Source: Asterochloris sp. CNOR1 (lineage: Eukaryota; Chlorophyta; Trebouxiophyceae; Trebouxiales; Trebouxiaceae). From it: a DNA stretch of 64,000 nucleotides. The DNA lies in assembly GCA_963969365.1 (NCBI GenBank), contig OZ017754.1, forward strand, positions 2,046,001 to 2,110,000, in the 5' to 3' direction. The translations under genes and the position numbers were made by a program. The stretch's first letter is position 1, and every line of letters begins with the position of its first letter. The notes beneath the pieces are model-generated. The model was given only the letters and a program-made list of their open reading frames with translations. It had not been told where the DNA came from and searched no databases. Below are positions 12,252 through 58,500 of the stretch, piece after piece.

Positions 12252-15200
12252 TCATGCTAGCATACACTGCTCAATGCCACAAGGCCCTCCTTGCATCCTG
12301 ACAGGACCAGTCAGCTGCAAATTCTTATACAGATGCCGATGCAGAGCACCCAAGCAGCCAGTTAATGGGCAAATGCCAACAGAAGCCCTGCAGACCGTTG
12401 GCTCACTCATGGCACTGTCTGACATCCTTCAGCAGCCTTGCTGCAGCACCTAAGCACTTTTGGCTGCTGGGCCACAGGGGTGCTCTGCATGTGCCACATG
12501 CATTGCTCTGCCCTATGGGCATTCCCTCATTCCCCACCTGTTTTCTGAGCCAGCAGAGTCTGCCCATCGCGCATGCATGGCAACTGAATCCCTCTCAGCT
12601 TGACCCTTGGGCTGCACCTTCTGCAGCATCAGGAAGGCATGCTGTCAGCAACCTTTTGTAAGAGCCACTTTGTGCAGCTGCTGGCAATGACCAGCCAGAG
12701 CTTGGCTCGTTGCAGCCCCTCACAGCATCATGTAGGCATTGGCCCTTGAGGGTTGATCCACTTGCTGGGGATGAGCCAGGGCGTGATGCTTCTAAGGCTG
12801 CTGGCCTTGTGCACGGGATCAGAGCCTGTGGCAGTGCAGCCAAAGCCCAAGCAAGCAACTGCATGCTTGCCCTGGCATCATTGAAGCTGCTGGCCCTGCA
12901 TGCAAATCTGAATCAGGGGCTAAGCAGCCAAGACCTGACAGCAAGAGGCTACCAAGCGACCAAGGCCATCAGTCCAGCTGCTTACCTTGAATGCAGATCC
13001 TGATCTGGTGGCTGTGCGACTGGGTCCTGAACGCAGGTGTGAGCGGGGATGGCTCTCGCGGCTCCGACCCAGTCCATCTGCCCGTGAGGATGGCCCTCCA
13101 CTGTGCAGCCTGCAGGAGCACAGGCCCTATCTTAAAGCGAGGGGAGAGATGGGCATTCCATCTGCATGCCCCAAGCACCTGTGCAATCACCTCAAGGCTC
13201 TGTGTGCAGCCTGCTATGCTCTGTATTTCTGCAGCAATAAAAAGCTCTGTGGGGCTTCAGGAGAGGCCAGCAAGAAGTCTGTTGGGCTAGCAGGGACGGT
13301 TGGCAGGAGATGTCTGGCTGCTACACTGGCTTCAGCAGCAGCAGCCTATATGACCTGGAATAGGGAGCAAGATGTGATGCCCTCTACAGGCGGGCACCAA
13401 AAGGGCACCCAGCCCCTGGTTACTGGCATCGCTGCTGCTCATGACGCGTTGGCTCATAACAAACCTGAAAGCCACACTTGTCGCGGGCACCTTGGCTCTT
13501 CTGGTCACAGGGACGCTTTGAGAGCAGCATGGCACGGCTGTCAGCTGCACTGCTTCCAGTACACATTGTGGCAGCCACTACAAAGCATTGTGGTCTGGGA
13601 AAGGATGTTGTTGCGCGAAGCACCCCTCTGTGTGCTTTCAGCGCCGATGTACAGTGGGCACTCCCCTACATGGCGCCTGCTTTACCTGGACAACGCTGGC
13701 AGCTCGCCTTCAACAATCGCAATCCCCCCCAAGGTGCCCAACAGGCCGCCCAGCGCTTCCAATTTTGCATGCTTCGATGCAGCTTGCCTGGATGCCCGCC
13801 TGAGCTGCTCCATGGCGTGAAGCAGAGGCCCCCTCACCTGTCGCTTGCTGCTGCCCTCATTATAGGCTCCCAGGCAGTCGGGCTTAGAACGCGCCATGAA
13901 TTGCTCCACGCATGGTTCTCAGGAGGCCCCAAGGCCCTTCACCTACCATGCTTCCCCAACATCTTTGCAATGTTGACGGCACTCAGTCTGAGTGAACCCA
14001 TTGAATGATCCACAGCAAGCATGCAGAACCTCGTTCACCTGTCACTCATGCCCGACCTCTTCATTGGTTTCCTGGCGGTGTCCCGCATCTCAGGGGGGTC
14101 CTGCGAGTCGCGCAGGGAGGCGCCGTGCTGCCGCGCAGCCATGCTGGCGATGACCTCCGGCACCGCGGCCGGCCCAAAGACCTGCTGCGGGTCCTGCCAC
14201 CATCGGCGGGGTTGAGGGACAGTGTCAGCGCCCTGCAGCCAGGACAGTCAAGGTCAGCACTGCACTACGCTGTGCAAACAGTGCTGATGGCACTGCTGGG
14301 TCGATAGGACCGACCTGGCATGAGTTGCTGCTCTGCAGCCAGGAGAAGAGATGTCAGCACTACATGAAATTCCCCAGTTTTGTAGATGGCACTGGAGGGG
14401 CTGCAGGGTCAGCAAGGGCCTCTGGCAGTGCTGCTGGCCTGGCGACCTGCTGCAGGTCCTGTCACCATCAGTGAGGCCCAGGGAGAGCAATAGCGCCCTG
14501 GAGGCGGGGGGGCGGGGGGGGGGACAGAAAGTCAGCACTTAGCCTCAAGTTCCTCAGTTTGCCAACTGTACTGCTGGCCCTGCAGGGCAGCAGACTCAGC
14601 AATCACCTCTTGCATTGCTGCTGACCCAATGATGGGCCTATGGCCCCTGCTGGCCTGGGCATCAGCACCCTTCAAGGCAGACAAGAGGCAGGCACTTTGC
14701 CCTGTGACGTTGTGCAACCCGAGCTGGTGGCACTGCTCGATCAGAGTCACAGAGTGCCTGAGCAGCCAGAACGCCACGAGTTCGTGAGGCCGCGCCATAC
14801 GGCCTGCAGCATGAGGGGGTGGGCAAGGAGCAGAAGAGGGCACCCTCCAACCCGTGTCACTGTTCGCCAGCATGCCTTCAGCAAGAGAGGGTGTCAGGTC
14901 AGCTCCTCGCTGCTGCGGATTCCTGATTGCTGCCACCCAGCCAAGCTCAGCAGAGCTGCCACCCTGCAGATTGTGGTGGAGGCCATTGCCTGCAGCCCTT
15001 GCCATGCATCCTGAGACAGCATTTCAACAACATTGCACAGCTGAGACTGCTGTGCATGCGAGAACACTTGCAATCCCAACTCTGGGACAGTTCCTGCTGA
15101 ACCACAAAGCTCGTCGAGCCTATTATGCTGTACTGACCTGACCGGTGCCTAGGTCGCCCGCCGTGTTGCGGCCGCCTGCTGGATCCTCGCTGGGGGACAC

Positions 15201-15768
15201 TCCCCGCCTTGCAGGCTCCCTGCCCCTGGGCTCTCTGCTGCCTGCACAGAGCAGCTGCCCAGGGTGAGTGGCAGAGGCTGGGAGACCACAGGCAACCCAC
15301 AGACAACCCAGGTGGTGTGCTGCCGGGGAGGACCGGGACTGCCTGGACTGGCGGCCCCCTGCCGCTGCGCAGTACAGGTGGCCAGATTGTTATGTGGAGG
15401 CTGTCAGACTTGCAGCCAGCCCTGTTCTAGGGTACCAGTGCAGCAAGGAAAGACAGTGCACAGTGCCATTGTCCATCTTGAGACGCAGGGGGCGCCAGCA
15501 TCGCAGACAGCCCGCTTGTGTGCACCACCAGAGGCAATGACAACAAGGCTGCTCAAGCTCAGCTACCTGTCCAAGCCACAGCCAGCCTAGGCGAGCTCCC
15601 ACCTGCTGGACAGATTGCTGCCAGGCGCGCAGCAAGACTGCCCAGGAGCAGGAGCACTGTCTGGCCACGCCAGAGGCCAGCCCCATACAGAGCAGCCAGG
15701 TTGCAAATGCATGTGCTTGTATCAAGCAGCATAGCTGCAGCACATGGAGTTGCTGCAGACTGACACAA
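12252..15768 (-). CDS. Uncharacterised multi-exon gene
   Basis: I do not recognise the family. From high to low coordinate, exons bounded by tgcag/gt sites give: a helical segment LAALYGAGLWRGQTV near 15650; LDELCGSAGTVPELGLQVFS...LCNVVEMLSQDAWQGL at 15120-14990; HELVAFWLLRHSVTLIEQC near 14770; PIIGSAAMQEVIAESAALQG near 14640; WWQDPQQVFGPAAVPEVIAS at 14214-14030; EQFMARSKPDCLGAYNEG near 13890; KLEALGGLLGTLGGIAIVEG near 13750; a basic Ser/Arg-rich exon ending TRSGSAFK/gtaagc near 12990; KVQPKGQAERDSVAMHARW near 12600; and a last exon ending GPCGIEQCMLA before a stop at 12252. The protein looks mostly helical, with a basic C-terminal third. The start is uncertain; a Met at 15768 is possible. 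Parts could belong to the upstream minus-strand gene. Confidence 0.45.
14179..14538. repeat. Tandem copies of an exon edge, with a G-run
   Basis: The bases from gacctgctgcgggtcctgcc (14179 to about 14260) reappear as gacctgctgcaggtcctgtc at 14444-14538. The shared order is gacctgctgc, accatc, gcgccct, ggacag, gtcagcact. A third partial match lies near 14334-14365. The first copy includes the start of the WWQDPQQVFG exon; the second keeps the intron side and part of that exon edge. A run of seven G, one C and ten G lies at about 14505-14523. Confidence 0.7.
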
Positions 15769-15983
15769 TCAGATGCGCAGCCTTGCGTGGATCATGTCTG
15801 CCAGCTGATAGATTCCGATTGCTGCTGGATGCATATGACCTGCCAGGCAAGCCGTTGTCATTGGCCGCGCTGCTGCACTGCTCTGTGTGCGCAGGCAGAC
15901 AAGCTGGGAAGACAAGACGGCAGTGCAAAAGGTCCAGGCAAGAGGATGCAGCCAGTTGCTCGTCTGCTTTGTGCACGTGTCTG

Positions 15984-18900
15984 CTAACCTGCGTTGAAGC
16001 AGCCTGCACAGGGACCTGCAGGCTCACCTGCTGTGCCACCGCAGCGTCTGCTAGTGGTGGTGCAGCACACCGAGGTGCACATGCAAGCCTCACCTGAAGT
16101 GCCAGCTCCTTGCCCGTGCCCCGACTGCGTCTGCTGCTGCTGGTGGTGCGCAGCAGCCATGAAACGGCCATAGTGGTGCATGTACCATGCCGTCATGGGG
16201 TCCAACCCTGGAGGGTGGGCACACGGTGGGATGGGGGGCCCCATCGGGGGGCTGGGCATGCTGCCGGCGCCAGGCAAGCTGCCGGGGCCAGGCTGCACGG
16301 CGTAGGGATTCCCAAAGCCGCCCATGCCGTAGGGCCCGTAGGGGGCAGGGAAGCCAGGGTAGGGCATGCCCATGCCTCCCATGCCTCCCACTGCCAGCTG
16401 AGCCATGCCCGGGTGGACGCCCATGCCGGGCGGGGCCATGCCAGGCAGGCCCATGCTGCCCAGCAGCATCTGGCCCATCAGCTGCTGGTGCTGGTGGTGC
16501 TGCAGGGCCGCCTGCATCTCGGGGGGCAGGGGCCCACCACCAAAGGGCCCTGGGGCCCCAACCCCACCATGACTTGCGAGCCGTTGCTCCCCCAGGCGCT
16601 CTGAGGACTGCTTGGGGCGTTGCTGCTGGACCCAATGGAAGCCCTCGTGCTGGGTCTCGTCAGCTGGGCTGCTGCCCTCCCCCTGGGTGGAGGCTTGGAC
16701 TGCCCGCGCGCCCTGGGTGGAGGCTGGGACTGCCTGTGTGCTGCCCAGCAGTGGTGGGGGAGCCTGCAGCAGGCAGGACTGCCCTGGGTGACATGCGAGC
16801 GACTGCCAGAGCAAGGAGCAGCTGGCTGCAGCAGAAGCAGCAATCAGCTGAGCCGGCACGCCTGTAAGTGGGCAAACTAATGACTTCTGCTGCCAGCCTG
16901 GGCCTGGCAGGCGCCCAGCGAGATGCCAGGAAAGAGACGACGAGCCTGCCTGTGCCAGGTGCAGCCAGCTGCTGCAAGCACACCTGCTGCTGCCAGCCCT
17001 GTTCCTGGCGGACCGCAAGCTCAATGCCGGGAGATGGAACTGCAAGCATGCCTGCCCAGGAGGCTGTAACAGGCACACCTGCTGCTGCCGCTCATGTCAT
17101 GACTCAAGAGGCAGCAAGCTGCCACAGGCACACCTGCTGCTGCTGTGCTTGTGCGTGCAGCGGCGCCTCTGCCGATGTGCCCTGCTGGGAGCGCGGCGCC
17201 AGAGAGGGCGCAGTGTCTGCGCTGCGGTCTGCGCACAGGAAGATGCCCCGTTGCTCGGCCGCAGTGGCCCCCGCCGCGTCCCCACCAGAAGCAGGCGCCG
17301 GCGTGGCACCCTCCACCTCCTGCTGGATGCTGGGCTCGGTGGAGACCTGGCCTGCCTGCACCGGCTGAGTGCTCCTGCATGGCATGGCACAAGTCAGCCA
17401 AACGTGTGCTGCTGTGGCAGCTGCTGCCTCCTGCTGCTGCCGGGACTGCTAGACACCTGCCCTGCCTGCACAGCCTGCACGCTACTGCAATGCGGGCCAG
17501 TGGCCCCCTCTAGAACTTCTGCCGCCATAGCAGTGCTTGCCTCCTGCTGGATGCTGGAGTCACTTGTGAACCTGCCCTGAGTGCGCAGCCTGCACGATGC
17601 TGCAGGGCACGGCAGTGGCCAGTCTCAACAGGCTATTGTGGCAGCTGTTGCCTCCTGCTGGCTGCTGGGTCTGCGAGCCTGGGCACTCCTGCAGGGCATG
17701 ACAGCAGCCAGTCTAGTGTGCTGTCATGTCAGGCTAAGCTCACAGGATACCTGTCTACGCCTGCACAGCCCATACCCTCCAGCTGGACACAACAGGCAGT
17801 CTTCAAGTCTGAGTGGACGCCTACTTGCAGTGCAGCGCCTGCGAGCCTGACAGTGCCCTTTGACAGCACCTGGAAGGCCTGCCCAACATTGGATATGCGC
17901 AGTCACATGTGTCAAATCCTGTCTGCCAACCTGCACCGCCAGTCTTCAGACCCTGCCAGGTGACTGGTTGCTCTGGCGGTGACCTGAACCAGCAGTGTTG
18001 AAGCCTGGCCTGACATAGCAGTGCAGCCTGAACACCCTGCCAGCCTGCACTGCTCTGCCGGAAGCCGCGACGTCTCCCTGCAGCTCCCCTTGAGCTCTGC
18101 AGGGTTTCCGGCTCCTCAATGACCAGCTGGCAGTTGCTTGGGCCAGCAGCACCGGCTGACTTCGCTTCGACCAGGTGCAGTAATGTCTACCTGTCTGTTT
18201 TGGCCACAATTGCCCAATCACCCACCTGGAACTCTGCAGAGTGGCACTGCTCAGCTTGGCAGCCTCTAGCCTGGCAGTCTCCTGAGCCAGCAGCTCCGGC
18301 TGCTTGCAGACAGCCACCAGGTGCCGCTGCAGGGCCACCACACGGTGCAGGGCAAAGGTCTGCTCCAGCACCGTTTCCTGGTGCTGCAGGACCAGGCCCT
18401 TCAGGCGATTGAAGGCTGCGGTACCCAGGCGATGCTCCATGTCCTTGGGGGTGACAGCTCTGCAAGGGCAGCATGCGTGAGTGTTCAGGCAATGTCTTGA
18501 CCAAGTCACATCAGGGGTTACTTGAGGACAGGTGCCCTGCAAGGGCAGCATGGGTGAGTGATTGTGCATGATTCCACCATCTGGTAGTCCCTGAGAGACT
18601 CTGCACATCCATGCGGGTGAGTGCCCTGCAGGGGCAGCATTGAACTCTCAAGGGAACACCAGCGTGTTTGCCTTCTGATAAATAGGCAGCCTATTTAGGA
18701 GGTGTGCCAAGGCAAACGCTGCATGTCGGTTTTGTAGGTGATGGTGCTGAGGTGCAGCACGTGTGACTGGTCAGGGGTGCCACTCTACGATTCAGTATCC
18801 AGGCGGCCCTGTCTGTCCACAGGCAGCCCTGCAGGGGGCAGTATGAGGGATGGTCAGGGGTGTTACCCTACGAGGGTACCCAGGAGGCTCTGCATGCCCT

Positions 18901-20250
18901 CAGGAATGACAGCCCGACAGGGCCAGCAGCAGAACTATGAGCAGACTGTGTGCAGGCATGCCTCGGCGTGCACCTGGCTGATGAGGCATCTGTGAGAGCC
19001 TGTGAAACCCTGGTGCAGCAGAATGTTGCGCTGCCAACAGGCGTGTGCTCACTGGGCACAAGTGCAGAGGCGGCAAACTGCTGCAATCAGGTTGCCCTCA
19101 TGACTGCAAAACGCCTGCGCAGGCCCCTCACCAGGTGACCACGAGAAGCAAGCTGGGATGGCCTGCCAAGCCAGCTCCACTGCCGTTTGCTTGTGAGCAT
19201 GACAGATGTGACCACCATGCCCAGGTAGCAGGCCAGCACTCACCTGGAGGAAGGTGAGACCGACTCGTGGCGGCTGGCAGGGCCCGGCAGCTCCAGCCCC
19301 GCTGTGCCACCCGTCTGCTGGACAGGCAGAGCAGCCGCCCCTGGCTGGTGGTGGTGGCCCCTGCCGGGGAGCGCTCCCTGGCCAGCAACGCTGGTCTGGG
19401 CAGCCTGGTGGGCAGCCAAGCGCTGCTGAGCAGCCAGGGCCTGCATGATGCCAGGCCCTGCAGCCTGTGCTGCTGCTGCCTGGCTGGCCTGCCCAGCCAG
19501 AGCCTGCTGCACAGCCAGGGCCTGTTGCAGGAGCACAGGCCCTATCGCCTGCGCGGCTGCTGCCTGGCCAGGCTGGCCACCCAGGGGCGGCTGCACGGCG
19601 GCCTGCGGCGAAGCGGGCGGACCCAACTGCCCAGCCGGGGCCTGCTGCAGCATGGCAGCCTGAAGGCCTGCACCCCTGTGCTCCTGAGGCGGCGGCTGCT
19701 CCTGCAGCCGCTGCTGGGCCCTGCCAAGGGCATCTGGCGCCTGAGCGTCTAGGCTGGACGGCCCCCCGGCAGCCATGCCGCTGTTGCCCAGCAGCCTGAG
19801 GAGGTAGTCGTCGCACTCCGCGTGCTGCATGTGCTCATGGCTCAGCACGCTGCGGTGGGGGCCCAGCCAGGAGGCGCCTCCCAGCGACCGCATGGACAGC
19901 CCATCCCGCAGGGAGCTGGCTGGCAGGGACATCAGGCGCTCCAGGGACGCCACATTCCCGTCCAGCGCTCCATGGAACTTTCCCAGTGCTGCTGGCCCTG
20001 CAGGGGCCTCAGCGGCAGCGGCCGCGGAGGAGTCCTGGCCGTCACGCTTGCGCTTAGCGCCCGCCACAGCCCTGCTGCAGTCTGCTGGCACTGCGTCCGC
20101 GTGGTCGGCCCCTGCTGCAGGAGCTGGCGCGACCTGATCACCAGCAGGTTTGCCCTGCAAGGCGCTCCTTCCCCCAGGGGCCCTGCTTCCAGCGGCTGGG
20201 CCAACATTGGCTGCGCCAAAAGGGCCTGTTTCTGTGCTCGGCTGCCCTGC
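15984..20250 (-). CDS. Large low-complexity protein with an ELF3-like helical motif
   Basis: Exon 19244-20250 follows a ttgcag acceptor and ends SPSSR/gtgagt. It encodes an Ala/Gln/Gly-rich stretch with AGAKRKRDG (nuclear-signal-like) and ECDDYLLRLLGNSGM. Exon 18226-18461 encodes VTPKDMEHRLGTAAFNRLKG...EQTFALHRVVALQRHLVA...QPELL. This resembles the FELHRLI-KVQ-LI segment of EARLY FLOWERING 3, an evening-complex scaffold of the plant clock. Exon 18185-18045 gives VEAKSAGAAGPSNCQLVIEE. A repeat-rich part (17000-17700) includes VQAGQVSTEPSIQQEVEG and related copies. A Gly/Met/Pro-rich part at 16090-16640 holds LPGMAPPGMGVHPGMAQLAV and ends WYMHHYGRFMAAAHHQQQQ. Either frame end (15984 or 16090) is possible, as is splicing after AGTSG. 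The first coding exon lies upstream and is not identified. ELF3 kinship is an inference from one motif plus composition. Confidence 0.48.
16979..17720. repeat. Imperfect tandem repeats in the ELF3-like gene
   Basis: Plus-strand gcacacctgctgctgcc recurs at about 16979, 17070 and 17129. The phrase cctcctgctggatgctgg (with variants) recurs near 17319, 17426, 17541 and 17650, each followed by a form of gcctgcctgcac or tgcagggcatg. Read on the minus strand these give repeated SSIQQEA / PSIQQEVEG and VQAGQV segments, so part of the array is coding. Spacing is roughly 60-110 bases. Confidence 0.65.
18455..18915. repeat. Short tandem repeats in an intron of the ELF3-like gene
   Basis: The phrase ctgcaagggcagcat (or ctgcaggggcagcat) recurs near 18460, 18537, 18628 and, diverged, 18829. 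A second unit, ggtcaggggtg-(t/c)cac/tac-tctacga, recurs at about 18770 and 18851. Several copies carry gtgagt next to the repeat, so splice donor-like sites are duplicated with it. Confidence 0.6.
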
Positions 20251-20272
20251 CTGCAAGTACAGTGCTAGGTCG

Positions 20273-20617
20273 CTACCACAACAATAGTGGGTGCAGCAAG
20301 CAGCCAGCCTGCAATGTGGTAAACCACTGCCGCACCAGCCAGGACAGGAGCTCAGACATCAGTGTACATCCTCAGTAATATTGCTTCATGTCTGCAACCC
20401 AGCACAGCCAGGCTGAGCCAGGTTGCCACAGGTTATTGAAGCGGCAGGCCTGCCAATCGGGCACTGACGAGGCAGATCGAAATGAAGATACAAAAATATC
20501 TTTCAGCTGCTGCACTAGTTGGTGGATACGCTGTTTGAAGAACAAGCACCCAAAATGTAGAGCGTAACCCACCATTACGAATGCTGTAATTCGGAAGTGG
20601 ATCGTGACACAATAGGC
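20273..20617. promoter_or_regulatory. Divergent promoter region (AT-richer)
   Basis: Lies between the minus-strand ELF3-like gene and the plus-strand J-protein start at 20618. It is clearly richer in A/T than its surroundings, as at gaagatacaaaaatatcttt near 20482. It probably also holds the first, unidentified exon of the ELF3-like gene. Confidence 0.4.
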
Positions 20618-22934
20618 ATGCACCCACCTACCTGGAGTTCAAGTTGGCAGTCTCGTGCTAGGGTTCTGAGCTATCGCAGCGTTCTCCCCTTGGGACTGGA
20701 AAGGCAACACAGAAGGCCAGGTCCTGGCCTGAAGCTGCAAAGCACAAGAGGCCAGCCCGTCAAGGTGAGTGCTTACTGCTGCTGATCTGTGTGTTCTTGA
20801 GCATGCTGCACAGAGCCTCTCCTGCCAATGGAACAGGTGAACCGCAAGTGCGCGCAAATGCTTGAGTGCCACACCGCTCCTGACAGGAAGCTGATCAATG
20901 CTCTAGCAAAGACAGCCTGCCTGCAGGTGTGCGCTGGCCGCTTCGCCAATCCCTACAAGCTGCTGGACCTTAAGCCGGATGCTGATCTGCGGCAGATCAA
21001 GCGAGCCTACCGCAAAAAGGCGCTGCAGTGAGTCGATCATTGGCATGGGCTGCATCACTGCGATTGCAATGTCACGACGGCTCCACAGCTTGCATCCCAG
21101 CTGGCTCCCAGCACCTGCAGTTGGAGATGAGCTGAGCTGCTTGCATTCAAGCACTGATGCAGTACTTGTCAGCAGACCTGCGGCGGCGCTGCACAGTAGT
21201 GAGATGCACCCCTGCTGGTGTGCAGGCACCACCCTGACATCAACGACTCTCCAGATGCAGAGGAGATGTTCATTGCTGTGCAAGAGGCCTACCAGGTGCT
21301 GACTGGCAGAGGCAAGCCATCAGAGGACCCTGAGGCAGCACGTGGCGAGTCATGGGACTTTCACGACTGGTGAGCTGGCATTGCTCAGCAGACACACACT
21401 GTTGTCGGACCTAGCCACCACAAGGAGCTTTGTGCTTGCCAATTATGGGCAGGAGGCTGTGCTTGGCGTCCATGCAGGCAAGCTGATGTGCGCTGTAATG
21501 TCACTCCTCCCAGCTCTGATAAATAATCAGGAGCGGGTGTTGTCATCCTGCATACCTGCTCACCCTGGTCTGCTATGCCTTTCAGGGTGCTTTGGGCCAT
21601 TCAGTCAGGCAGGGTTGCAGAGCAGCTGGTCCATGCATGCAGCGGCAAGTGGGCACTGTCGCTGCAGGTACTGGGATTTCTTGATGGGGCGGCGCCACAA
21701 TCGGAAGTGGGACAGCAGTGGACGGCAGGGGCCTCCTCCCTTCGTTGCTCAGCCCAGCACCCGCCACCAGGTCTGCTTGATGGTGCTTGCCCGCCACTGC
21801 ATTTTTGAGCCGTCAGCTGTCTCACAGTTGGCTGGCTGTGGGGGCGCTTGCATGACACTGCCACAGAGCCGGCTTGGAGGGCAGTCCAGTGGAGCAGCAC
21901 GCAAGGCTTGAGGCTGACATGTGCCTTGATGTTGGGCAGACACCTCCCGAAATGCATGCAGGCTGCTGTCTGGCTGGCTGCAGTCCTGTGCAGGTGCACG
22001 CGCAGCTGAGGTGGCTTCCTGCGGTGACATTGTCAGTCAGCCACAACCCAAACCTGTACCCCAAGCCTTTGTATGAAAGGCTACAGACAGCCCCTTAGGA
22101 TCCGAATTGCACGAGCTTCCCGTGCTGGCTGTGCAGGTGCAGGAACAGCTGGGTGGCCTCAGGCGCAAGGCTGCTGCGCGGCAGGCCAAGTTGCGATGTC
22201 AGGGCCACGCAGTGGCCAGGCAGGGCCAAGCTGTTCAGCCTGCAGAGGACTCTGCCGTGGCGTACGCAGCAAAGGCGCAGGCCAACACTGCCAGCCTGGG
22301 CACGTCCAAGTCTGGACAGCCTGCGCCTGCCAGCAGGGCCGCTGCAACAGGCAACCCTACATTCACGCGTCGCTTCGTGGCCAAGACCAGGAAGGCGCTG
22401 GCCCACACACAGCGGCAATCGCGCCAGGTTCTGCTGGTGCACACGGAGTGCCTGCTCAGTCGAATGGACAACCTTCTGGATCTGGCACAGGCAGCCTTGG
22501 GCCGGCGCCATGCGCCCCACAACCCAGAGGATGCCTTCCAATTTCCACCAGCTGCCAAGCAGCAGCCACTGGGGGAGCATCACAGCAAGCATCTAGACAA
22601 CCTGGCCTGGCCAGGCGTTGTTGGCAGTACGCCTGGTTCAAAGAGGCCGTCTCACCAGCAGCTCAGGACCAACTGGCATCTGGCGGCTGCTGTGATGGTT
22701 GACCACCCTGTACCACTACCCTCTGTAGTATCTGTGCACCCTCCCCCGCAGATTTTGTATCACACCAACATTTCCTGTGCATCTTGTGACACCAGTGACA
22801 CACAGCCACCTCAAAGTCAGCCTACAGAGCATGATGATGACGCACAGCATACATCTTCAGACTTCAGCACCTCAGCAGGCCATGTACAACACCAGCTCGC
22901 AGGGCTGAGGCGCAGAGCAGCACGCAAGCAGTGA
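20618..22934 (+). CDS. J-domain (DnaJ-like) protein, probably plastid-targeted
   Basis: Exons: 20618-20764, 20927-21027, 21226-21369, 21668-21770, 22137-22934. The first encodes a Ser/Arg-rich, acid-poor leader (MHPPTWSSSWQSRARVLSYR) typical of a chloroplast transit peptide. Exons two and three encode the J-domain: NPYKLLDLKPDADLRQIKRA, then HHPDINDSPDAEEMF...AYQVLTG. The HPD triplet that stimulates Hsp70 ATPase is intact, and the CA/G phase across the intron fits. After the J-domain comes WDFHDW-YWDFLMGRRHNRKW, then a long tail without the G/F or zinc regions of canonical DnaJ, so it is a type III J-protein. The tail begins VQEQLGGLRRKAAARQ and ends VQHQLAGLRRRAARKQ at the stop. There could be one more small exon between 20765 and 20926. 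Confidence 0.88.
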
Positions 22935-23079
22935 CAGGTCTTCTTCACATGCCTGCTTTGGATTGAGAAGCTCCCCCTCACATCCTGCCAGCCTGCCCGT
23001 CATTGAAACTTTCCAGCCTTACGTACTGGTCACGAAAATAGACACACGTTTTTAGTCAACCTGGTCTTCCCAGTCAGGC

Positions 23080-26020: not shown

Positions 26021-26039
26021 CAGGGTAAGCAGACCTCAT

Positions 26040-27016: not shown

Positions 27017-30000
27017 TCAGCCAGACTTGTCCCAGAGCTCCTCGGAGGCATCCCCAACATGTGTGATGACGTCCCCAGCCTGCATGGCTCGCTTCTTCTG
27101 CTGGAAGGCCAGCTGGGCTGCCTTCCTGGCAGTCAGGCAGCCGCTGTAGCAGGCCAGCATGGTCGGGCTGACGCCCTGCAGCAGCTCAGTATCGGGTGCT
27201 TTGCCCTCCTTCTCCAGGTGCTGGAACGTCCAGGCCATGAAGGTGGCGATGCACCCCGTCATCACATCACCCTGCAGTGTGTGAAGATGGATGAGCCAGA
27301 CTTGGGCTCAAAGGGTGATGCTTTCATGCTTGGCCTGTCAGATCGGTGGCGCTCTGGCTGTCCATTGCCCTGCACGCAGCAAGGTGCTGCTCAGCAAATT
27401 GGGCAGCCAAAGGGAAGCACATTGTCACGAGCCCTCTGCACAGTGGGAGGTGGTTGAGCTGTAAACCGGACAGGGCAGTACAGGATGCAGAATCTGGGGG
27501 ATGGGTAGCCCATGACGATGCACCCTGTCATCAAGTCAACCTGCACAGGACAAAAGGAAGTGCCTGAGCACCCTGCGGGCTGCAGGGGTCAGCAGTAGGT
27601 ACCAGCGCAGCCTGTCACCAGTCGCAACCTGCGCAGAACAAGGAGCTACCCCCGAGTGCCATGTAATCACAAGACGGGTGCACATGAGTGCAGGCGGCCC
27701 AGCCTTGACTTTGGAGGTGCAGTGCTGTCTGTCGAAGCAACGGCAGCGTACCGTCAAGTCCCCCTGCATGCAAGCACAGGACAGCCTGCTCTCAGGACCA
27801 GGTGCACCGCAGAGTGGAAGGAAAATCTGAGTTGACGTGCAGTGAGATCAATGGAGGTTGCTGGGTTGCATGGTGGAGGGTCAGGTGCAACGCGCAGCTG
27901 AAGGTGCTGCCGTCAGGTGCTCTGGCAGTGCTCTAAACTCTCCAGCAGAGGGAGGCTGATCATCTGCCACCTGGCACCGCAGCCAGGAGGGGTGTCTGCT
28001 GCACCAACCACAGCACACGAGTGGGGCTGCGCAATGCATCAAGGCCCCACCTGTCCGCCTGAACGCCGCTTGGAGCCATACCCCTCACAGTGAATGGTAG
28101 AGTGACCGTTGGTGATGGCATCCGCGGAGCCCTTCTGGACGATGGTGGGCCCTCCCAGCATCGCAGCGATCTCCTGCACCTGATTGTCCCTGGAGAACAG
28201 ACAAACCATGCGCTGGATGACCTGAGGCAAAGACAAGCGTTGCAAAGGAGCCACTGAGCACGGGAAGAGCAGGCTGAGCCCAACTAGCCAAGCAGCGAAG
28301 GTGCGGCTGCAGTGTTGCTGACCGTATCCTGTGGTGTCGTCTGCCACCCAGACCTCTGCCAGCCACACAGCAAAGTGGCTCTCGTTGGGAGCCCTGCTTC
28401 CACGTCATGCTGCGATTTGTCTCATCATGGCTGGACCTGCACATTTGGCCAAAGCACCAGCTGCAGGGAGCACCCACCTGCTTTTGTCATCCAGATCAAC
28501 CTTCAGCTCTTTTGCCAGCCGTGCAAACTCGTTCTTGTTGGGCGTGAGGATGGCCCTCTTATAGCCCTTGACCAGGTCTAGGTCATGGGTTGTGATGTAC
28601 AGGCCATCTGCATCAATGATCATGTGCTTGTTTTTCTGCCTCAGCTGCTTGATCACCTGCCAGCAGGGGGCACAGGGACGTCGATCAGCACCAGCTGGGA
28701 GCGAAGCAGGATGGCCACACAGCCAGCTTGCTCCAACAAGTGAGTACAATTGTACGTCCTCAGGCCCCCAACGCAGGCTCACAGCAGCATCAGGCGTGCA
28801 TCACTAGCAGGCTGGGGTCCTTTGCTGTTCATACCCAGCTGGCTGCAGCATTTGATGGGGCAAGGTGCCGCCTCAGGCAGGGCAAGGTGCATCCCCCATG
28901 ACGAGGCAAGGTAGGGCAATCCCTAACCAGGTGCAGCCACAGCTCACCTCTTTGACGACGTGGTGCACCAGGGGATCCCTGCCCAGCCCTGGGCCGATGA
29001 TGACCACATCAAAGCGCTCCATCCAGTGGTCCATGTCCCCCAGAGCCTTTTCCAGGATCTTCTTCTTCTTCCCCTCATCCAACTACAGGCACAGGGCCAG
29101 ATGTGAGGCAGCCTACATGCAGCAGGCTGGCCAGGCAGCTGCTGCTGGCAGGGCACAACACACTTGGCCTGGACACAGTGCTACGACTGATGCTGGCGTG
29201 CCAGGGCAGCAGCGATGTTCCACACCCCTCAGAAACACAAAGCTGCCCAGGCATCTTGTGCTGGCAGCTCTGCAGAGCAGAGAAGCCACCCCTGGCAGTC
29301 CCACAAAGGGGCAAAGGGCCACTGTATGGAGCAGCAACCTGCAGGCAAGGGGCATGATGCAGGCTGCAGCCGCACAACCCAGCACACAAATTGCCATCGG
29401 CTTGCATGAGGTGCAGGGGAAGAGGCAGCTGCTGCGCACACCATCTCACCTCCTCAGGGTAGTCATTGGAGTCGGGAAGATAGGGGTGCACGATTAGCTC
29501 GGGGCTGTAGGACTTGATCACTGTGGCCGCGCCCTCTGTGCAGAAGACATGGGATAGGTCTGACCCCAGCTACAGCACAGGGGGCCATTGTTGGGTGGGA
29601 ATTTTGACCTCAGCGACAGGACCAGTCTGATCCCCCAAGCAGATCGTGCAGTCCGCGCCTCATCCAATCAGAGGCAAGCACCATGACACAGGTCAGTTAC
29701 CCAGCGCAGCACTAACAAGGCAGTGGCTGGCTTCAGTCTGCTGGGGGCAGGCAGTGGCTGGCTTCAGTCTGCTGGAGGCAGGCTGAGCCTGACAAAAGTC
29801 ATGCTGTTGGCGCATCAATGAGCCCGGGCACGTCTTACAAGCAAGGGTTCAGTCAAGCGCGGATAGGGCATGCATGCGGCCACAGATGTGATGAGAGCCT
29901 TCCAAGAGCCTGACAACCGAGAAAAAGCGATGGCAATGGCATTGATGTGAACCTGCCATACTGTGCAGGTGGTTAGGCAACCAGCAGCAGCCTGCTCATC

Positions 30001-31677: not shown

Positions 31678-34600
31678 CTAGCTGTCCCTGAGGGCCGCCT
31701 GGAGCACGGCAACCTGCATGTCCATGTCAGCCATTTCTGCTGCATGCTGTGTCTGAGCCTCCACCAGCTGCAATGTCTGCCTGGGCAGCCAGCAGGCGCT
31801 GCTCAAACTTGGCAGTCAGGGCTGCCTCGGTGCTCTGCAGCTGGTGCTGGTGCTTGGCGGCCAGGGCTGTGTAGCTGGCCTGGAAGTCCGCCAGCATGGC
31901 TGCCTTCTCCTCAGCCTGCAGCAGTGGCACATGCAGGTCTCAGGCCGACAGCCAGCTGGAACATTCAGCTGGAGTGGGCATCACAAGCAGCCCGACTTTG
32001 CCTACAGCAGCGTGCTGCAGCTGAGGCTGCTCGACACGGTGCAGCACGGCACAGCTGCGACCAGGCACCAGAATGATTGGTGATGCTGCAGGGAGCAGGT
32101 GCTGTGTCCCTGCAGCCAGCGCAGTCAGTGAGGATAGCCCTGCAGCGGGGATGCAGGTCAGGCCGGTGGCACTACAGCTCACATGCTGAGCGCGCTCACG
32201 GGCCACGGCAGCCCAGACCCTCAGGTCTGCAGCCTCCTCAGTGCCTGCCAGACTGGCTGATGGCCTGGCACTGGCTGAGCGGTGGCTGCCCGGCGACCCA
32301 CTGCTGTCCACAGGGGACGTCACACCGAAGTCCTGCACGTGCATCCATGCAGCAATGAGTCTTGCTGAGCACCTCGCTCAGGCCGTCAGGTGAGGGGAGG
32401 GGACTTCAATGGTGGTATGAGCCGGCACACATAGCTGGCAGCCAGTGCAGTGGGACATGTAGCCTTTGAGCGCACAGCACAGCCAAGCGCAGGCCCATGA
32501 GGGCATGCTGATGGCTGCCATAGCTGTGGACCGACTCACCGTGAGGCCGCTGAGGGTGCTGCGGGCACAGCTGGCTGGGGAGGCTGCCAGCTTGGTTGCA
32601 CAGGGTGGGAGGATGGCTGGGGAGGTGGCCTGCAGCAGAGGGGACAGAAGGAATGTCTGGTCCAGGGCGTGCTGCGCTCCTGAAGGGGTCCTGTGCTGCT
32701 CTCTGGCACAGCTTGGGACTCTGGACACAAGACACATGCGAGCAGCAATGCAAAGCCAGTGCCTGTGCTGGTAATTGGGAGTACTTGGCAGGGTGTGTGC
32801 CTCAGCATGCAGGTGTCCTTGGTTTGAGGGTCTATGAGCAGGATATGCGCGTAAGGCAAGAGCGTGCTGTTCATGAGCTGTGGGGGTGGGAGGAGGGGCA
32901 GGCCGCTGCCCTGCACCACTGCATGCAAGCAGCATAAGCTGGAGTGAAGCAGAAGCGCTGCCCTGGACCTCCGCCAGGCACCCACCAGGCGCCCCTGCAG
33001 CCTGCTGTCGGCAGGTGTGCTGTAGGCCCCCTGTTGCCTCATTGCTGCCGGACTCTGCGCACTCTCTGCCAGCAATGCTCTCAGCGCTGACTCGGCCTGC
33101 AGGCAGGCCACTGCTGTGTTCCAGCACGGCTGACGGTCCAGGAGCACAAGTTCCAGTAAGGCAGGCAGCTTTGTTGGGGCCTGGACAAGCTCATAGGATC
33201 AGAGGTAAGAAAATAGGCAGCAGTGGTCTGCACAGAACAGTCCCAGACAGAGCGTTCAGACCCATCAGTGCAAGAACAGCTGCTGGATATTCCCGCACAA
33301 GTCAAGCGGGCCACCAGATAGAGAGGGAGTGGGGGCACAGACCGATCTCCAAGTGGCCTGCGAGACACTCCCAGGGGGGTGGTAAGCAGCAATGACAGTG
33401 CTTTGTCACATGTAGCCTTTCCAGAGCACAGCACAGCCAAGCGAAGGCCCCATGGGGGCACAATGATAGCTGCCGTACTTGTGGACTGACTCACCGACAG
33501 GCCACCAAGGGTGCTGCGGGCATAGGCTGCACCAGGGGTCACAGGGCTGCGATTGTTGATGAAACGTTTTAATGCTGATGAGGTGTCCAGGCACAACTCT
33601 GCAGGACCAGAGTCCGCCAGCAGAGGGCTGGGGATGGCCGAGAAGGTGGCCTGCAGCAGAGGGGACAGAAGGAACGTCAGGCCCCGGGCATGCTGCACTC
33701 GTGAAGGGATTGTGTGCTGCTCTCTGGCACAGCTTGGGACTCTGGATGCGAGCAGCAATGCAAAGCCAGTGCCTGTGCTGATGTTTGGGAGTGTGACCCA
33801 GCTCTTAGTGCGGTGTGTGCCTCAGCATGCAGGTCTCTATTTGTTGAGGGTGTACAAGCATGCACCACTGCATGCGGAGATGAGGCAGCACCAGCTGGAG
33901 TGAAGCAGAAGCGCTCCCCTGGACCTCTGACAGGCACCCACCAGGCGCCCCTGCTCACCTGCAGCCTGCTGTGGGCAGGTGTGCTGGAGGCCCCCTGCTG
34001 CCTCATTTTTGCCGGACTTGGGCCCTTGCACGGCACGCCAGGGGCTTTGCTGCCATCCAGCAGGCAGAATCTGCCAGGGTCGCAATAGGCCTCCAGCACC
34101 TGCTCCAATCGGAAAGCTGCTTGCTGCAGAGCTTCGTCTGTGGGGTCACAGATCTGGGGGGCCAGCTGTACCAGCAGCTTCACAATCTGCAGGGGCTGCA
34201 GCCCTGCCACCACGAGGCATGGCACCAGACCCGTGCTGCCAGGGACCCACTCTACAGACAGGCCAGGCACGTAGTCCAGGTTGTCCAGGATGTCTGCAGC
34301 ATCTGCGCGGCACCCCATGCTGTGGACCAGGTGGACCACATCAAAGCAGGCCGGGCAGTATCGGCCCACCAGGGGCAGGGCCCCCCCAGGGGACTGGCAG
34401 TGGGCTCTACTGGCCAGAGACGGCTTGGCAGTGGGGCTCCACATGGCAGACTGCAGCAGCAACGCGGGAGCAGTCAGGCCTGTGCACCAGCACATCGCAG
34501 AGACAGGCGCTGTGTTGGCAGCTTGGCCACACTGGAGGACTGACAAGAGGCAGCGGAGAGCTGGGTGACTGGAGCTGAGAGAGGGGTGAGGTGCTGAGCA

Positions 34601-40470: not shown

Positions 40471-40619
40471 CAAGAGAGTCTGTTGGTGCCTCAGCAGGGA
40501 GGCCCTGAGATGTCAGCTGCGCTGCTCAACACATTAGAGCACTGATCAGTGGGACACAGCCCAGCATTTGACAGTCAATTTGCATACGTTGTTTTTCAGT
40601 GACTGCGCAAGGAGCTCCC

Positions 40620-49081: not shown

Positions 49082-49118
49082 ATTGATCCAGATACTATGA
49101 ACTGAAGCCAAAGCACTG

Positions 49119-52318: not shown

Positions 52319-52511
52319 GGCAGAACTGATGCTGCAGGCCAAAGGCGCTGGAATCGGGATCCGCCCACAGATGGCTTAGGAAATGACACGAGCTTTGCTG
52401 GTTTTGCACTAAAGGGGGCTTTTTCATAACCTTATCTCTGCACACACAGCTTTGCTGCTCGGCGGTGCACTGCATTGACTGCCTTCTGTAGGCCCTGCTT
52501 GAATACCTGAG
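52319..52511. promoter_or_regulatory. Compact bidirectional promoter between PGR5 and GCFC/ILP1
   Basis: 193 bases between outward-facing ATGs. It must serve a photosynthesis gene and a nuclear housekeeping gene. The A/T-richer piece around 52385-52435 is the only compositional feature seen. Confidence 0.55.
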
Positions 52512-55500
52512 ATGAGCCGCAGCAAGGTCAGGCAGGGCAGGGTGAAACCATCGTTTGCAGAAGATGATGAGGAGGAGGAGGAGACAGGCATGGCAGCATT
52601 CCTGGCCTCCCGCAAGGGAGTACAGGGCAAGGCAGGGAGCAAGAAGGGGGCAGGCAGCACCCAGCCTGCCCCAGCTGCCAAGCAGAAGAGCAGCATCGTG
52701 CTGAAGCCTCCTGCAGCTCGGCCCGAGGCTGCCTCTGCTCAGAGCACGCAGCGCTCTGCGCCAGGTGGGAACTGCACATCATGCAGGGGTACCAACAAAG
52801 CTAAGGCCTCTGCTTGCACAGTAGATTGGCAATGCAATTACTCCCTCTCGTGCAGGCGAGTACTCCAAGGACCGGCTCAGGGAGCTGCAGCAGAAGACAG
52901 CGCGGCTGCCAGCCAGCAAGCCTGCTGCCCCAGCAGATCCGGCACCGTTCAAGATCTCTGGCAGCTTCAAGCCTGCTGGCACGCCAAAGGATGACAGGTT
53001 TCTAGTGAGTTGGTGCTGCAGTTGTGCTTGTGAGCCTGATGCAGTTAGTATGAAACGCTTGACTCACAGCATAGGAACCCCAGGGTGCCTGCCTGCTTCT
53101 TGTTGCAGGCTGTCCCGTCTGCAAGCGCAACGCGGCCTTCTGACGATGCGCCCCTGCCACCACCAGCCCGGCCTGGCAGGACTGCAGCATCTGTAGCGCC
53201 TGCCAAGCCGCAGGACGACGATGCTGTCGACTTGGAGGGGTTCCAGGCTCCGGATGAAGCAACAATCAGGTGCGCCGTCTCCGCTGCCTCTGCTGCAGCC
53301 TTTGGGTGAGCATGGAACAGCTTCTGCCTACTCATTGAGCAAGTATGATGCTGAAGCCTGTGCAATGTCTCTTGGCAAAGCAGTGTTGATGCTGAAGGCT
53401 CTCTGGGGGCCCAGGTTCAGCAAACTTACATGTGTTCACTTGTTGCCAGTGGCCCTGCTGTGCTGCAAGCTTTGGAAAGCACTGCACCCTTTCCTGTCAT
53501 GCTGCACAGTATTGCCAAGAGCAGCAGAGGATTGAGCTGGCTGCCTGCCCTGCAGTCTCACATGGTGCACATCTGCCAGTTGGGAAGGCAGCATGTGCAT
53601 TGAGCGCTGTGGCTGCCTGCAACTATGGCAGTGTGCAGCAGCAGAGTCACTGCTGCACTATTGCTTGGCGTGCTGGCTGCTTGCATGCGGTGCTGGCTTC
53701 AGCATCAAAGCCGCATGCCGTGCGTGTGCGCTAGCCTGCATGGCACCCAAGGTGCTGCAGGTCTGCGGCTGCTTGTAATCATACATTGATTACAATTGAT
53801 GTGCTTCAGGACCTCCCAAAGCCCTTCAGCATTGTGTCGCCTGCTCCATGTCTATGCATTTCTGCAGGCGCATCAAGGAGAAGCGGGCTCGCCTGCAGGG
53901 GGTGCACATGGCCCCTGACTATGTCCCGCTAGGGGGCATGACAGCCCCTCTGACCACAGATGCAGCACTGCGGCCTGCCAATGGGGCCGCAGCTGCCCCT
54001 GCTGCGTCTGGCTCTGACTCTGAGCCAGAGCAGGAGGAGACCCTGCACATGACCTTCCTGGGAGATGCCCACAAGCGGGGTAAGGCCCGGCCTGGGGTGT
54101 TCTCATCCCTTGCTGACGAAGACCAGGTACATTCCATGCACATGCCTGTGCCCCATTCCCTGCAGGCTTGCTGCAGCTTCCCCCTGCACATCTGCTTTGC
54201 ACTGCAGTGCTGAAAGGAGCTCGCTGACATGTTGTCCTGCCACATTCATGCACCCAGTGCAATTCGTCTGCCTGCAGCAAGCTGTGGCACCCACGCGTCT
54301 GTGCTCAGTGGCAGCTTGCTGCATGAACACTGTGCATGCTGCTACCTCTGCTAGCTTCTTAGTGGGAGTTGGGCTAATTTCTCAGTTGGCATCCACCGTT
54401 GCCACCCAACAAGGTCTAGCCTCTGCCCACTGAAGGCCGAACCAGTGGATCACGACGAGGACGAAGCCTGGGTGAACGAGCAGATTCGCAAGGGGGTGGG
54501 CCGCCGTGCAGAGCCCTCGCCAGCTCTGGCTGCAGCCCAACAGCGCAACAAGGCTGGCGGCAGCAGGGGCAGCAGCCGGGAGGCACAGCCGCCTGCAGCG
54601 CCCGCAGCGGGGCCTGGGGCATGGGCATCTCTGTCTGCGCGGCAGGCTGAAGGGGTGGCCACAGCTGGGGATGGTGTGATCAAGGCGCTGCAGAACGGGG
54701 TGGCGCAGCTGCAGGTAGCCAGACTGCCTTCCTGTGTTGTCAGATGTGCACTGCCGAATACTGTGTGGTGTGCTGCAGCTCGAGCTCTTGCTCTCCGCCA
54801 CGCTGGCACGAGCAGCCAGCGCCTATGCCTCCTTTGGGTGCTGCGGTGGCATGTGCTGCAGGCGCCTGCTTCAGCTCCTGTCCCCTGTAGCTATGGCTTG
54901 ACAACAAGCACGATATGACCCTGTTGCTGCTGCTGCTTTGCTCATTGCTGCCTGTCTGGGTGCTCTTGCGCCATTGTTTCCCACATACCTCTTAGCCTGA
55001 TGTGCAGGGCCAAGTGCTGCATGTAACAACTGCTGCATGCGCAGCACAAGCTCAGATCACCCTGGTGGGCATCACACCAGCCTACATAGGCATCGTCGGC
55101 GCATGGCACTTACCTACATCTGATACCTCGCAGGCTGCTGGACATGCGCATCTCAACGTTTTGGTATTCACTGCAGGCAACCCAGCAGCATGCGCAAAGG
55201 TCGCTGGCTCGCACCAGCCTCAATCTGTCTGACACCCTCAAGGCTATCGATGCGCTGGAGCAGGAGTTGGAGGCTGCCGGGGTGAAGTACACACAGATGC
55301 AGGAGCTCAAGGTCTACATTGCAGACCTCTGTGACATGCTCCAGGTGGGCTGCTGTGTCTGAGGTGGTGTCTTGCGCTGCACATCTGCCATTCGCTGCTG
55401 ATGGCCACACCTGGAAGCCTGCGGACTGACATGTTTTTCCGAGTCGCTACGCAGCTGCTGCCTCGCAACTGCTGTAGCGCACTGCAGGCCCAGCTTAATC

Positions 55501-58500
55501 TTATCCCTCTGCAAGCCCTCAGGTCAAGCATCCCCCTTGCTTTGGGTGATGCACCCCCAGGCTGACTATACTCTGCAGCCAGAGGTGCTCATCAGCACTG
55601 CTCACCGATGACTGGCCTGCTTGCTGCAGGCCAAGTCGCCAATTGTGGAGGAGCTACAGGACCACCTTCTCAAGGTGCAGCAGGACAGGGCAGACGCTGC
55701 TGTGGACCGGACTGCAGCAGATGACCGGGAAGAGCTGGCACCGGCAGAGGCCGGCATGCAGGCAGCCTTGGGAGTCCTGTCCAGGTGACGCTGACTGCAG
55801 CGAGGCGTCGTGAGACGTGCATTTCAGCTGCTGCCTGATTCCTGCAGCTGGGGCTGGCCTGTGCAAAGGCCAGCCTTTTGGCAGTGGTGCATTTCCAGCA
55901 CAGGCCAGCCTCTGCCAGGCGACAGCCACAATGCAGCCTTAGCTTGCTGTCTACAGCCTGCATTAGGGACATGCTCATGGCTTGGACTGCTGCCTTGCAC
56001 ACTCTGCTTGGCCCGCTGTGTCCAGCGCTTGCTCTAAAGGCCTGTTTACGCTTGGAGCTGCAGGGCTGCATGCTCTGCTGCACAATTCTGCCAAGGCTGT
56101 GTGAGGCTGGTCACCCCGTCCGGCGCAGCTGCCCATGGAGCTGCCGTGCATTGTTTCGCTGCTGCAGCTTACATCTCCAATGACACCTGCCTGCAGGGGC
56201 GGTGCTGAGGCAGCAGCAGGAGCAGCAGCTGAAAAGGCTGCCGCCGCTGCCTGGCAGCACATGCTGGCCAACCTGCCTCAGAAGCTGGACGAGTTTGGGC
56301 GTGACGAGAACATGGAACTTAGGGACAAGATGGTCCGGAGGCATGAGCAGCGCCAGGCAGCAGGCCAGCAGAAGCAGCACTGGCAGCCTGGAGAGGTGGG
56401 CTTGGCTGATGCTTGGTCTGCACATCTGAAATGCGCCTGGTGGCAGCGTGGTGATGTACGTCGGCGACTGCCTACCATGAGTACGAGTTGTTGGCAGGCT
56501 GGAGCTGACGGGAATGCTGCTGCCAGTCATGCCTTGAACTGCTGTAATGCCTGGAACTGTTGTTCAGTCGCAAGTGGCCCTGCAACAGACTTTCAAGCCA
56601 CTCATGGTGCCTTCCATGCACCAAGCGAGCGCACTTCTCCAGGGAGCAGTCTGCTGCGGTGACAGCCCTGTCCACACCAGTTGTTGACCCTGCAGACTGC
56701 TGAGCCCTGCCTGGGATCCGCATCCTGCTGTCTGACCGTGGTGCACAAAAGGTGTGCATCATGCAGTCTTCTGCACCTGCAGACTTCTGAGTCCCCCCCG
56801 GGGTCTTGACACAAGTGATAAGAGCAATCGCGAGGTCCAGGTCTGAATGAATCATCTGATGTGATGTTCCCGCTGGTGCAGACTGCTGAGCCCCACCTGG
56901 GGTCTGACACCAGCGATGAGGACGAGGGCGAGGTGCGGCATTACAAGCGGCGGCGAGCCGACATCCTGGAGGCCTCAGCCAGCGTGTTCTCTGATGCTGC
57001 CGAGGCCTATGGAAGCCTGCCAGCGGTCAGGGCACGGCTGGAGCGCTGGAAGCGGGAGCAGGCGGCCAGCTACAGGGATGCTCACCTCAGCCTGAGTGTC
57101 CCGGCGCTGCTGGCACCCTTCGTGCGGCTGCAGCTGCTGCAGTGGGATCCGCTGTTTGGGGGCCAGGCAGGTGCGTCCTTGGCCAAGGTGTCTGCTGGGC
57201 ATGGTCAGGAGCGTGTGCAGTCATCTCGCTGGGGATCTGGCGCACTGCGGAAGGCTGCACTGTCCTCTGAGCAGATAGGGGGCTTCCTTTGTGCACCTGT
57301 CGCTCTTTGAGTGGGACCCGGTGCTTGGGGCCCGGGCAGGTGAGTCGGTCGTCTGGGCGCTGGTGCTAGGATGGCGCCACAGATGGTGACAGTTCAGTCG
57401 GGGATTGTTGGGGCACGGGGGCAGTCAAAATTATTGCGCATGTCAGCTTGAGCACGCCGACCCGTCTAGCACATATCAGGTGCTCTGCATGTGCTAGCCA
57501 TGACCTGGTGCCTGAAGGTCAGTTGAAGCTTGGCTGGTGCCTCCCATTTCCCCTCTTGTGTACTGCGCTCCTTCTGGCTTGCACAGTGCCAGGGCCTCTC
57601 TGCTCCACAAAAGCAGAAAGCAAGGCAATCCCTGCCTCAGACGGCAAGAGTCCCCTACAGGCCTGGACTCGCAGCAGGGGCACTTTCAGCCTGTTCACCA
57701 TTGTTTGTCTCAGGAGCTGCCACTGACACCTGCATGACACAGCATCCCTCTTACACTGCAAGGCGCTCTTTGATTTGATGCCTCCTGGAGGCCGCCCACC
57801 GCAAGGCCCTGCACGACGTAAGTCTGAAAGGCTGTAACAATGTGCTGGCTGCCTGGACTCCCAGACGAGGTATGAGGAGCTCTTCACCTTTGGCACCCTC
57901 CAGGCAATGGCCAGCAGCAAGCCTCTCATACTGCGACAATTTCCTGCAGGTCTAGACTTCAAGCAGTGGTACCAGGGCTGACTCGCCTACACGGACTCGC
58001 AGGGCGCAGCGTGCCCCTGCCTCTCACCATGTTGCTCTGCTGCAGGCCTCGACTCTCAGGGGTGGTACCAGGAGCTGTTCACATTCGGTGCACCCCAGGA
58101 GGCAGCCAACGGCCGGCACCAGCAGGCAGACGCTGACGAGGAACTCATACCTTGCCTGGTTCAGGAGCTGGCCCTCCCGCTCGCCACGCATGCAGTGCAG
58201 CATGTGTGGAACCCCTTCAGCCGGCGCAGCACCAAGGCGCTGGCGGCAGTTCTCGAGGAGATGATGGTTTACGCCCCTGCAGACAACTCCAAGCTGCAGG
58301 CAAGTGACACAGGATGGCAAAAGGTTTCTGTGGCACACCTCCCTTTTGACTGTTTACTCGTAGTCATGAGCAGCAGACACAGCAGAACCAGCAGTCAATT
58401 GTACATACGCTTGGATAAGCATTTTGAATGCCTCAACCTCTATTTCACATGTTGCAGCCAGAGGAGTGACACTCTGCTGCGTGCTGGAGGGGCTCAATGG

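Follow-up and report, generated by a model that had tools for sequence, protein, structure and literature searches.

Decayed direct copies of exon edges in adjacent introns of the green alga Asterochloris sp. CNOR1

Exon sequence is copied within a gene in tandem exon duplication with alternative splicing. Internal gene duplication, reportedly described by Gao and Lynch in 2009, is said to comprise short within-gene duplications that include exon as well as intron sequence and often splice sites, and a tandem genomic duplication model of intron gain has reportedly been put forward by Rogers and, in 2011, by Hellsten. To our knowledge, the lengthening of introns without transposon insertion is poorly documented. 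In the stretch of DNA analyzed here, a window of 64,000 nucleotides (nt) of the lichen photobiont Asterochloris sp. CNOR1 (C9:2046001-2110000 of the 56.4-Mb, 21-contig genome), the edges of exons recur as decayed, direct copies inside the adjoining introns, and the same was found in a comparison sample of 25 further 10-kb stretches of that genome (L-numbered), two of which (L009 and L010) flank the window. Duplication within genes is already known, as is its part in intron gain (PMC3443670, PMC2891723). Introners (PMC9860276) are dispersed related elements that change introns across a genome. No paper on exon-edge fossils in introns of Trebouxiophyceae was among the literature matches listed, which is not proof that none exists.

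The copies resemble internal gene duplications in that they are short, lie within a gene and carry exon, intron and often splice-site sequence, and two direct copies stand close together within one gene, as in an internal tandem duplication; they differ in being mostly decayed copies of exon edges, placed with strict polarity in existing introns, rather than new introns. The junction-crossing copies are best explained as a variant of this known process. Tandem duplication followed by a choice of splice sites that leaves the protein unchanged is shared with the tandem genomic duplication model, but that model needs an exonic AGGT and makes a new intron, whereas here an existing junction appears to have been duplicated and an old intron lengthened. 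Like tandem exon duplication, the process has copied exon sequence within the gene; unlike it, mostly the exon edge alone was copied, and the copies lack coding constraint (see below). As with introners, introns have been altered across a genome; unlike those dispersed elements, the two repeat units tested by whole-genome DNA search (32440-33200 and 56660-57400) had no related copies elsewhere, except for one weak match of 65% at C9:2142188-2142496.

Direct repeats at exon borders and their polarity

Exon borders were taken from an unsupervised hidden Markov gene finder that was seeded with GCFC, NAXD and WD40 exons and trained on the window and the 25 stretches. It learned CTGCAG as the acceptor (C 0.69, T 0.87, G 0.92, C 0.97, then AG) and GTGAG as the donor, and decoded 337 complete introns, with a median length of 315 nt, in the window and sample. 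Among five predicted products submitted to Pfam, GCFC (PF07842, E 2.9e-13), NAXD (PF01256, E 7.8e-49) and a PAS-domain product were recognized, and two had no match. The best of 12 matches to the spliced GCFC protein of the window was a model from Asterochloris (Astpho2, which we take to be A. glomerata), at 89% in local alignment; in a multiple alignment the two are 99% identical, gaps aside. The exon joins HWQPGE/TAEPH and FGGQA/GLDSQ given by the gene model match the A. glomerata protein (P0001), although two short stretches of the relative's protein are missed, about 12 residues are inserted in the N-terminal third and the region near the C-terminus differs. A published description of the A. 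glomerata genome (PMC6652019) gives a size of 56 Mb and a count of 10,025 genes, with 9 introns per gene.

Local repeats are far more numerous than chance provides, and they are direct. In 31 chunks of 10 kb (positions 1-60000 of the window and the 25 stretches), pairs with a blastn score of at least 46 and a spacing below 1.5 kb numbered 60 in direct and 3 in inverted orientation, and 62 order-4 Markov resamples of the chunks yielded zero; within 1 kb and at a score of at least 40, there were 89 direct pairs (86 unique) and 1 inverted pair. Such a surplus of direct pairs fits the expectation for tandem duplication. Overlapping chunks of the window caused three pairs to be counted twice (e.g., 18457/18534 and 27244/27513), and de-duplicated pairs or units were used in the alignment, simulation, age and intron-count analyses. 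Inverted repeats were confined to one of the 31 chunks, L026, which holds three such pairs at a score of at least 46 and no direct ones.

The first-pass annotation of the window had proposed an ongoing and local duplication process; the second attribute is not supported by the genome sample, which shows the same pattern. Pairs number 13 over 60 kb of the window and 47 over the 250 kb of the other stretches, and an exon-edge pair was found in 8 of 55 introns of the window and 21 of 282 elsewhere (Fisher p 0.11), so that, with similar densities and intron rates that do not differ significantly, the idea of the window as a hotspot was dropped. The richest sample stretch, L038 (10 local pairs), contains a dense multi-copy array at L038:1812-3167 (periods 181-936, 68-88% identity) that runs over predicted exons and introns.

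When the terminal 60 nt of each exon were aligned with its own intron (score at least 30), 21 of 255 acceptor edges and 15 of 258 donor edges matched; against the reverse complement of the same intron the counts were 0/255 and 1/258, and against other introns 0/1275 and 2/1290. An assembly error or an artefact of the gene finder, to which the unsupervised gene models lend some color, is a very improbable source of these matches: the reversed and other-intron controls are nearly empty, and the copies are 67-93% identical and occur in many stretches, whereas errors of assembly would be expected to yield near-identical ones.

The copies obey a strict polarity. For exons of at least 120 nt (threshold 30), exon starts were copied in 14 of 187 upstream introns and 0 of 189 downstream introns, exon ends in 14 of 189 downstream introns and 0 of 187 upstream introns, and exon middles in 0 of 187 and 1 of 189 (1/376), with no match to reversed probes in any class. 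Lowering the threshold to 26 raised the counts on the expected sides to 18 and 21 and left the opposite sides at 0, with 0-3 reversed matches per class (8 over the six classes). Matching and non-matching probes are alike in sequence complexity (trinucleotide entropy 4.74 and 4.80, respectively). Edge fossils are thus detectable at about 7% of exon edges (28/376 tests), and 21 of 24 matches obtained with whole-exon probes start or end no more than 22 nt from the expected edge. This geometry bears on intron birth from a tandemly duplicated exonic AGGT, which is well known as an outcome of internal duplication (PMC3443670). That model puts the start of the downstream exon beside the donor and the end of the upstream exon beside the acceptor; here the copies lie on their own exon's side, acceptor-edge copies being away from the donor of the upstream intron and donor-edge copies away from the acceptor of the downstream intron, and the two classes with copies on the opposite side are empty (0/187 and 0/189), which makes intron birth a highly improbable account.

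The suggestion that duplications fall at exon borders more often than random placement allows was borne out in the window and sample together. Intron-junction pairs numbered 37 (35 unique) against 12.8 expected, with the polarity just described; the other classes were intron-intron, 15 (14 unique) against 24.5; exon-intron, 4 against 8.9; exon-exon, 5 against 3.2; and pairs outside predicted genes, 19 (18 unique) against 25.5. Introns that hold an edge copy exceed the others in length (median 541 vs. 298 nt, p 3e-8), although a longer intron also offers more space in which a copy can be detected.

Decay, age and the CTGCAG motif

The copies had been described as ranging from near-identical to decayed. 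The 39 exon-intron pairs span 67-93% identity, with 89% (in L020) the best among those of at least 50 nt, and near-identity is not confirmed for them. Mismatches fall rather evenly on codon positions 1, 2 and 3 (85:73:104 over the 39 pairs), without the coding constraint that a copy keeps in tandem exon duplication, and 13 of the 39 pairs have a gap in their exon part; near-even differences and gaps together make the copies unlike missed coding exons. Some pairs reach well into the intron, and over all 39 pairs 1371 aligned exon positions (79% identical) and 1370 intron positions (78%) were counted, with a few arrays supplying much of the intron part.

Copies in the GCFC and NAXD genes do include an acceptor or a donor together with coding bases, as had been noted, but splice sites in the copies show no special retention. 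When the probe began 3 nt within the exon, 3 of 11 acceptor copies proved to retain AG and 4 of 10 donor copies GT, for a total of 7/21 against 64% expected at 80% identity (p 0.005), or 8/21 (p 0.02) when one case shifted by 1 nt is admitted, counts that misalignment at indels can depress. The apparent retention of CAG or GT in junction-crossing alignments was rejected as ascertainment, given the 7/21 found with probes that lack the splice site. That several copies keep these motifs in such alignments is what speaks for alternative exons, decoys or recursive-splicing sites maintained by selection; this is nevertheless very unlikely, given the retention below expectation, the almost even codon positions and a GCFC protein in A. 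glomerata without the copied segments. Neither coding sequence nor splice sites appear conserved in the copies, and the low retention of splice dinucleotides gives a weak hint that selection may act against decoy sites.

Young examples are scarce. Among pairs that are at least 60 nt long and spaced by at least 40, none of 44 reached 90% identity; for a minimum length of 27 nt the figure is 4 of 85, whereas the steady-state simulation places 22-26% of its detected pairs, over all lengths, at or above that level. Medium-sized duplications look old rather than ongoing. Young arrays detected by Tandem Repeats Finder (match at least 85%) numbered 38, of which 1 crosses a junction against 2.8 expected, a comparison weakened by their short periods (14-75), a size class other than that of the 60-350 nt pairs. 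On these figures an ongoing process is not supported.

CTGCAG had been proposed as the short homology that drives the duplications. At the boundaries of junction pairs it occurs in 11 of 176 cases (6.2%) against 3.7% nearby, an excess that the acceptor itself would give; at the boundaries of non-junction pairs it occurs in 5 of 168 (3.0%) against 4.1% nearby, and a role for CTGCAG microhomology, finding no support outside junctions, was discarded. The motif is in mild excess overall (296 vs. 247 expected under an order-3 model), and its abundance mostly reflects the acceptor consensus and base composition.

Survivorship and the residual border bias

The reading that we consider probable is that the edge copies are fossils of old, short, direct tandem-type duplications across splice junctions, events that added to intron length and whose products later decayed. 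Where the duplicated piece spanned an acceptor, the last acceptor would be used, the protein would stay intact and a copy of the exon start would be left in the upstream intron; where it spanned a donor, the first donor would be used and a copy of the exon end would be left in the downstream intron. The intron would grow, and the stranded copy would be free to mutate while selection held the exon. Direct orientation and strict polarity are as given by tandem duplication across a junction with use of the last acceptor or first donor. In some cases intron homology continues beyond the junction, which indicates that genomic DNA, rather than spliced RNA, was copied there, and head-to-tail homology over the whole period is seen in some arrays (e.g., L011:6177-6404 and window 17303-17677).

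How far the concentration at borders calls for anything beyond decay was addressed by simulating neutral tandem duplication. Exon-intron pairs should remain recognizable longer than intron-intron pairs because one copy is held by selection while the other decays, whereas both copies of an intron-intron pair decay and divergence runs at two rates. On pure survivorship, local tandem duplications would have fallen at random, with zero preference for borders, and exon copies would simply last longer; we regard this as a realistic possibility, though short of an even chance. It shares its mechanism with the preferred reading and differs only on the leftover border bias, so that the probabilities given to the two overlap. 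In its support, simulated survivorship lifts border pairs to near parity with intron-intron pairs even though fewer events cross borders, and random probes from intron interiors also match their own intron (10/285 vs. 0/285 reversed). Survivorship does explain much of the exon-border bias, but probably not all of it, given three departures, in border ratio, intron flank and exon middles, which come from a few dozen cases and from simulation settings chosen by the authors. Ages were uniform, indels were set at 12-25% relative to substitutions, exons changed at 0-0.4 of the neutral rate, and periods either followed a log-uniform distribution or were sampled from the observed pairs; the p-values are only as good as these settings.

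Several observations tell against duplication plus decay as a full account, or against the firmness of the edge signal. Border and intron-intron pairs stand at 34:12, where the neutral simulation gives about 1.0-1.1:1 (p 0.002), and counted by introns at 29:11 (p 0.008). Homology in the intron flank was found in 6 of 20 cases, against about 60-68% predicted (p 0.006), homology over the whole spacer reaches p 0.05 in only 4 of 23, and border pairs cover a median of 0.38 of the period (0.33 for pairs outside predicted genes); taken as a group, intron flanks do show homology, with p 0.003 at threshold 28 (28 matches), 0.045 at 32 (20) and 0.087 at 36 (11). A single exon-middle copy stands against 28 edge copies, where the predicted ratio is 0.33-0.36 (p about 0.001-0.003). 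From the other direction, edge probes (36/513) are separated from intron-interior probes (10/285) only at p 0.056, 3 of the 24 whole-exon matches lie 45-257 nt from the expected edge, and the borders themselves come from unsupervised models, which were checked by a relative's protein model in GCFC and by Pfam in GCFC and NAXD.

A rival reading of the same departures is a process that targets junctions and would place a short border-centered segment, a splice motif with 20-80 nt of exon, in the neighboring intron, for instance by way of DNA breaks associated with transcription or splicing. The excess over random placement (37 vs. 12.8) and over simulated survivorship, the short reach into exons (middles 1/376) and the weak intron flank in 14 of 20 cases are in its favor. 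Polarity and direct orientation, however, are already given by plain tandem duplication, the young tandem arrays have no border bias (1/38 vs. 2.8 expected), no young long border copies were found that would show the primary event, and pairs of the same kind occur between introns (14 unique) and outside predicted genes (18 unique); we think such targeting unlikely. Equally doubtful is an ancestral episode in the Asterochloris lineage, border-biased beyond selection and survivorship, that repeatedly copied junction-centered segments into adjacent introns. Under the preferred reading of duplication across junctions followed by decay, the remaining excess, which consists of small numbers (a few dozen cases), would have one of two sources: either the intron side that makes decoys was lost fast and long exon copies were purged, or the duplications favored junctions.

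Copies at individual loci and their implications

The clearest case is the GCFC gene (Table 1), where the intron upstream of exon 56882-57170 carries two copies of the exon start and the downstream intron carries one copy of the exon end with its donor; in this downstream intron the start of the following exon also recurs two or three times. Repeats were confirmed at all five places named by the first-pass annotation, in GCFC (two), NAXD, the 14-kb region and the SP/TP-rich gene, but not all of them are edge copies: the exon border assumed for the 14154/14419 pair is absent from the gene model, and 32443-34018 is a duplication of about 1 kb.

Table 1. Positions in the window of exon-edge copies, their source exons and related repeats
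Feature	Position	Strand	Remarks
GCFC exon	56882..57170	+	Start and end both copied into flanking introns; gene model, Pfam PF07842, joins match P0001
Copy of acceptor TGCAG and first 23 nt of exon 56882	56691..56718	+	89%, decayed
Copy of acceptor and first 53 nt of exon 56882	56778..56836	+	78%, one single-base gap, decayed
Copy of last 54 nt and donor of exon 56882-57170	57286..57346	+	75%, decayed
Possible third copy of exon 58046 start	57655..57674	+	Score 25, about the 99% null; weak
Copy of first 54 nt of exon 58046-58299	57851..57904	+	Score 38 vs. 99% null of 25; decayed
Copy of acceptor CTGCAG and start of exon 58046	57944..57980	+	Score 32; decayed
GCFC exon, source of copies at 57655-57980	58046..58299	+	Gene model; A. 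glomerata protein model
Last exon of NAXD (NAD(P)H-hydrate dehydratase)	27017..27271	-	Source of copy at 27513; gene model, PF01256
Copy of acceptor and first 28 nt of last NAXD exon	27513..27545	-	Pair 27244-27276 / 27513-27545, 33 nt, 85%
Putative exon start (by eye)	14154..14238	-	Repeated at 14419-14503; border absent from gene model
Copy of 14154-14238	14419..14503	-	73% over 85 nt
Tandem duplication of about 1 kb, one copy	32443..33054	-	78-84% in three blocks; includes exon end with donor by gene model
Second copy of the duplication of about 1 kb	33396..34018	-	Three blocks, spacing about 950-1020 bp
Intronic tandem array, periods about 111 and 224	17303..17677	-	Runs over acceptor of exon 17134-17355

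The NAXD pair reaches a score of 41, where the 99% null lies at 23; further copies suspected by eye near 27605 and 27745 were set aside, the next best alignment score being only 16. At the 14-kb pair the gene model has an exon at 14035-14142 only and the minus-strand frame through 14230 is open, and assignment of 14154-14238 to an exon is plausible but unproven. The repeat in the SP/TP-rich gene is a larger tandem duplication of the whole stretch, beyond an edge copy; the weak (65%) relative of this gene at C9:2142188-2142496 (-), about 63 kb away and on the opposite strand, is perhaps a paralogue. Tandem arrays are also present, as had been reported, in the gene called ELF3-like (16225-20804), including a coding tandem repeat of period 81-84 within a predicted exon (19244-20114); no Pfam family matched at E 0.01 among 403 residues, part of the predicted product, and the name is unverified. 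Elsewhere in the window, the predicted gene at 61292-62554 has a PAS domain (PF13426, E 6.5e-10) and is possibly, at a guess, a LOV-type photosensor.

The polarity rule, starts upstream and ends downstream, gives a simple criterion by which any annotated genome can be searched, and the departures from neutral expectation make a junction preference of duplications testable. If about 7% of exon edges carry such fossils, junction-crossing duplication may steadily supply intron sequence and competing splice sites in this alga.

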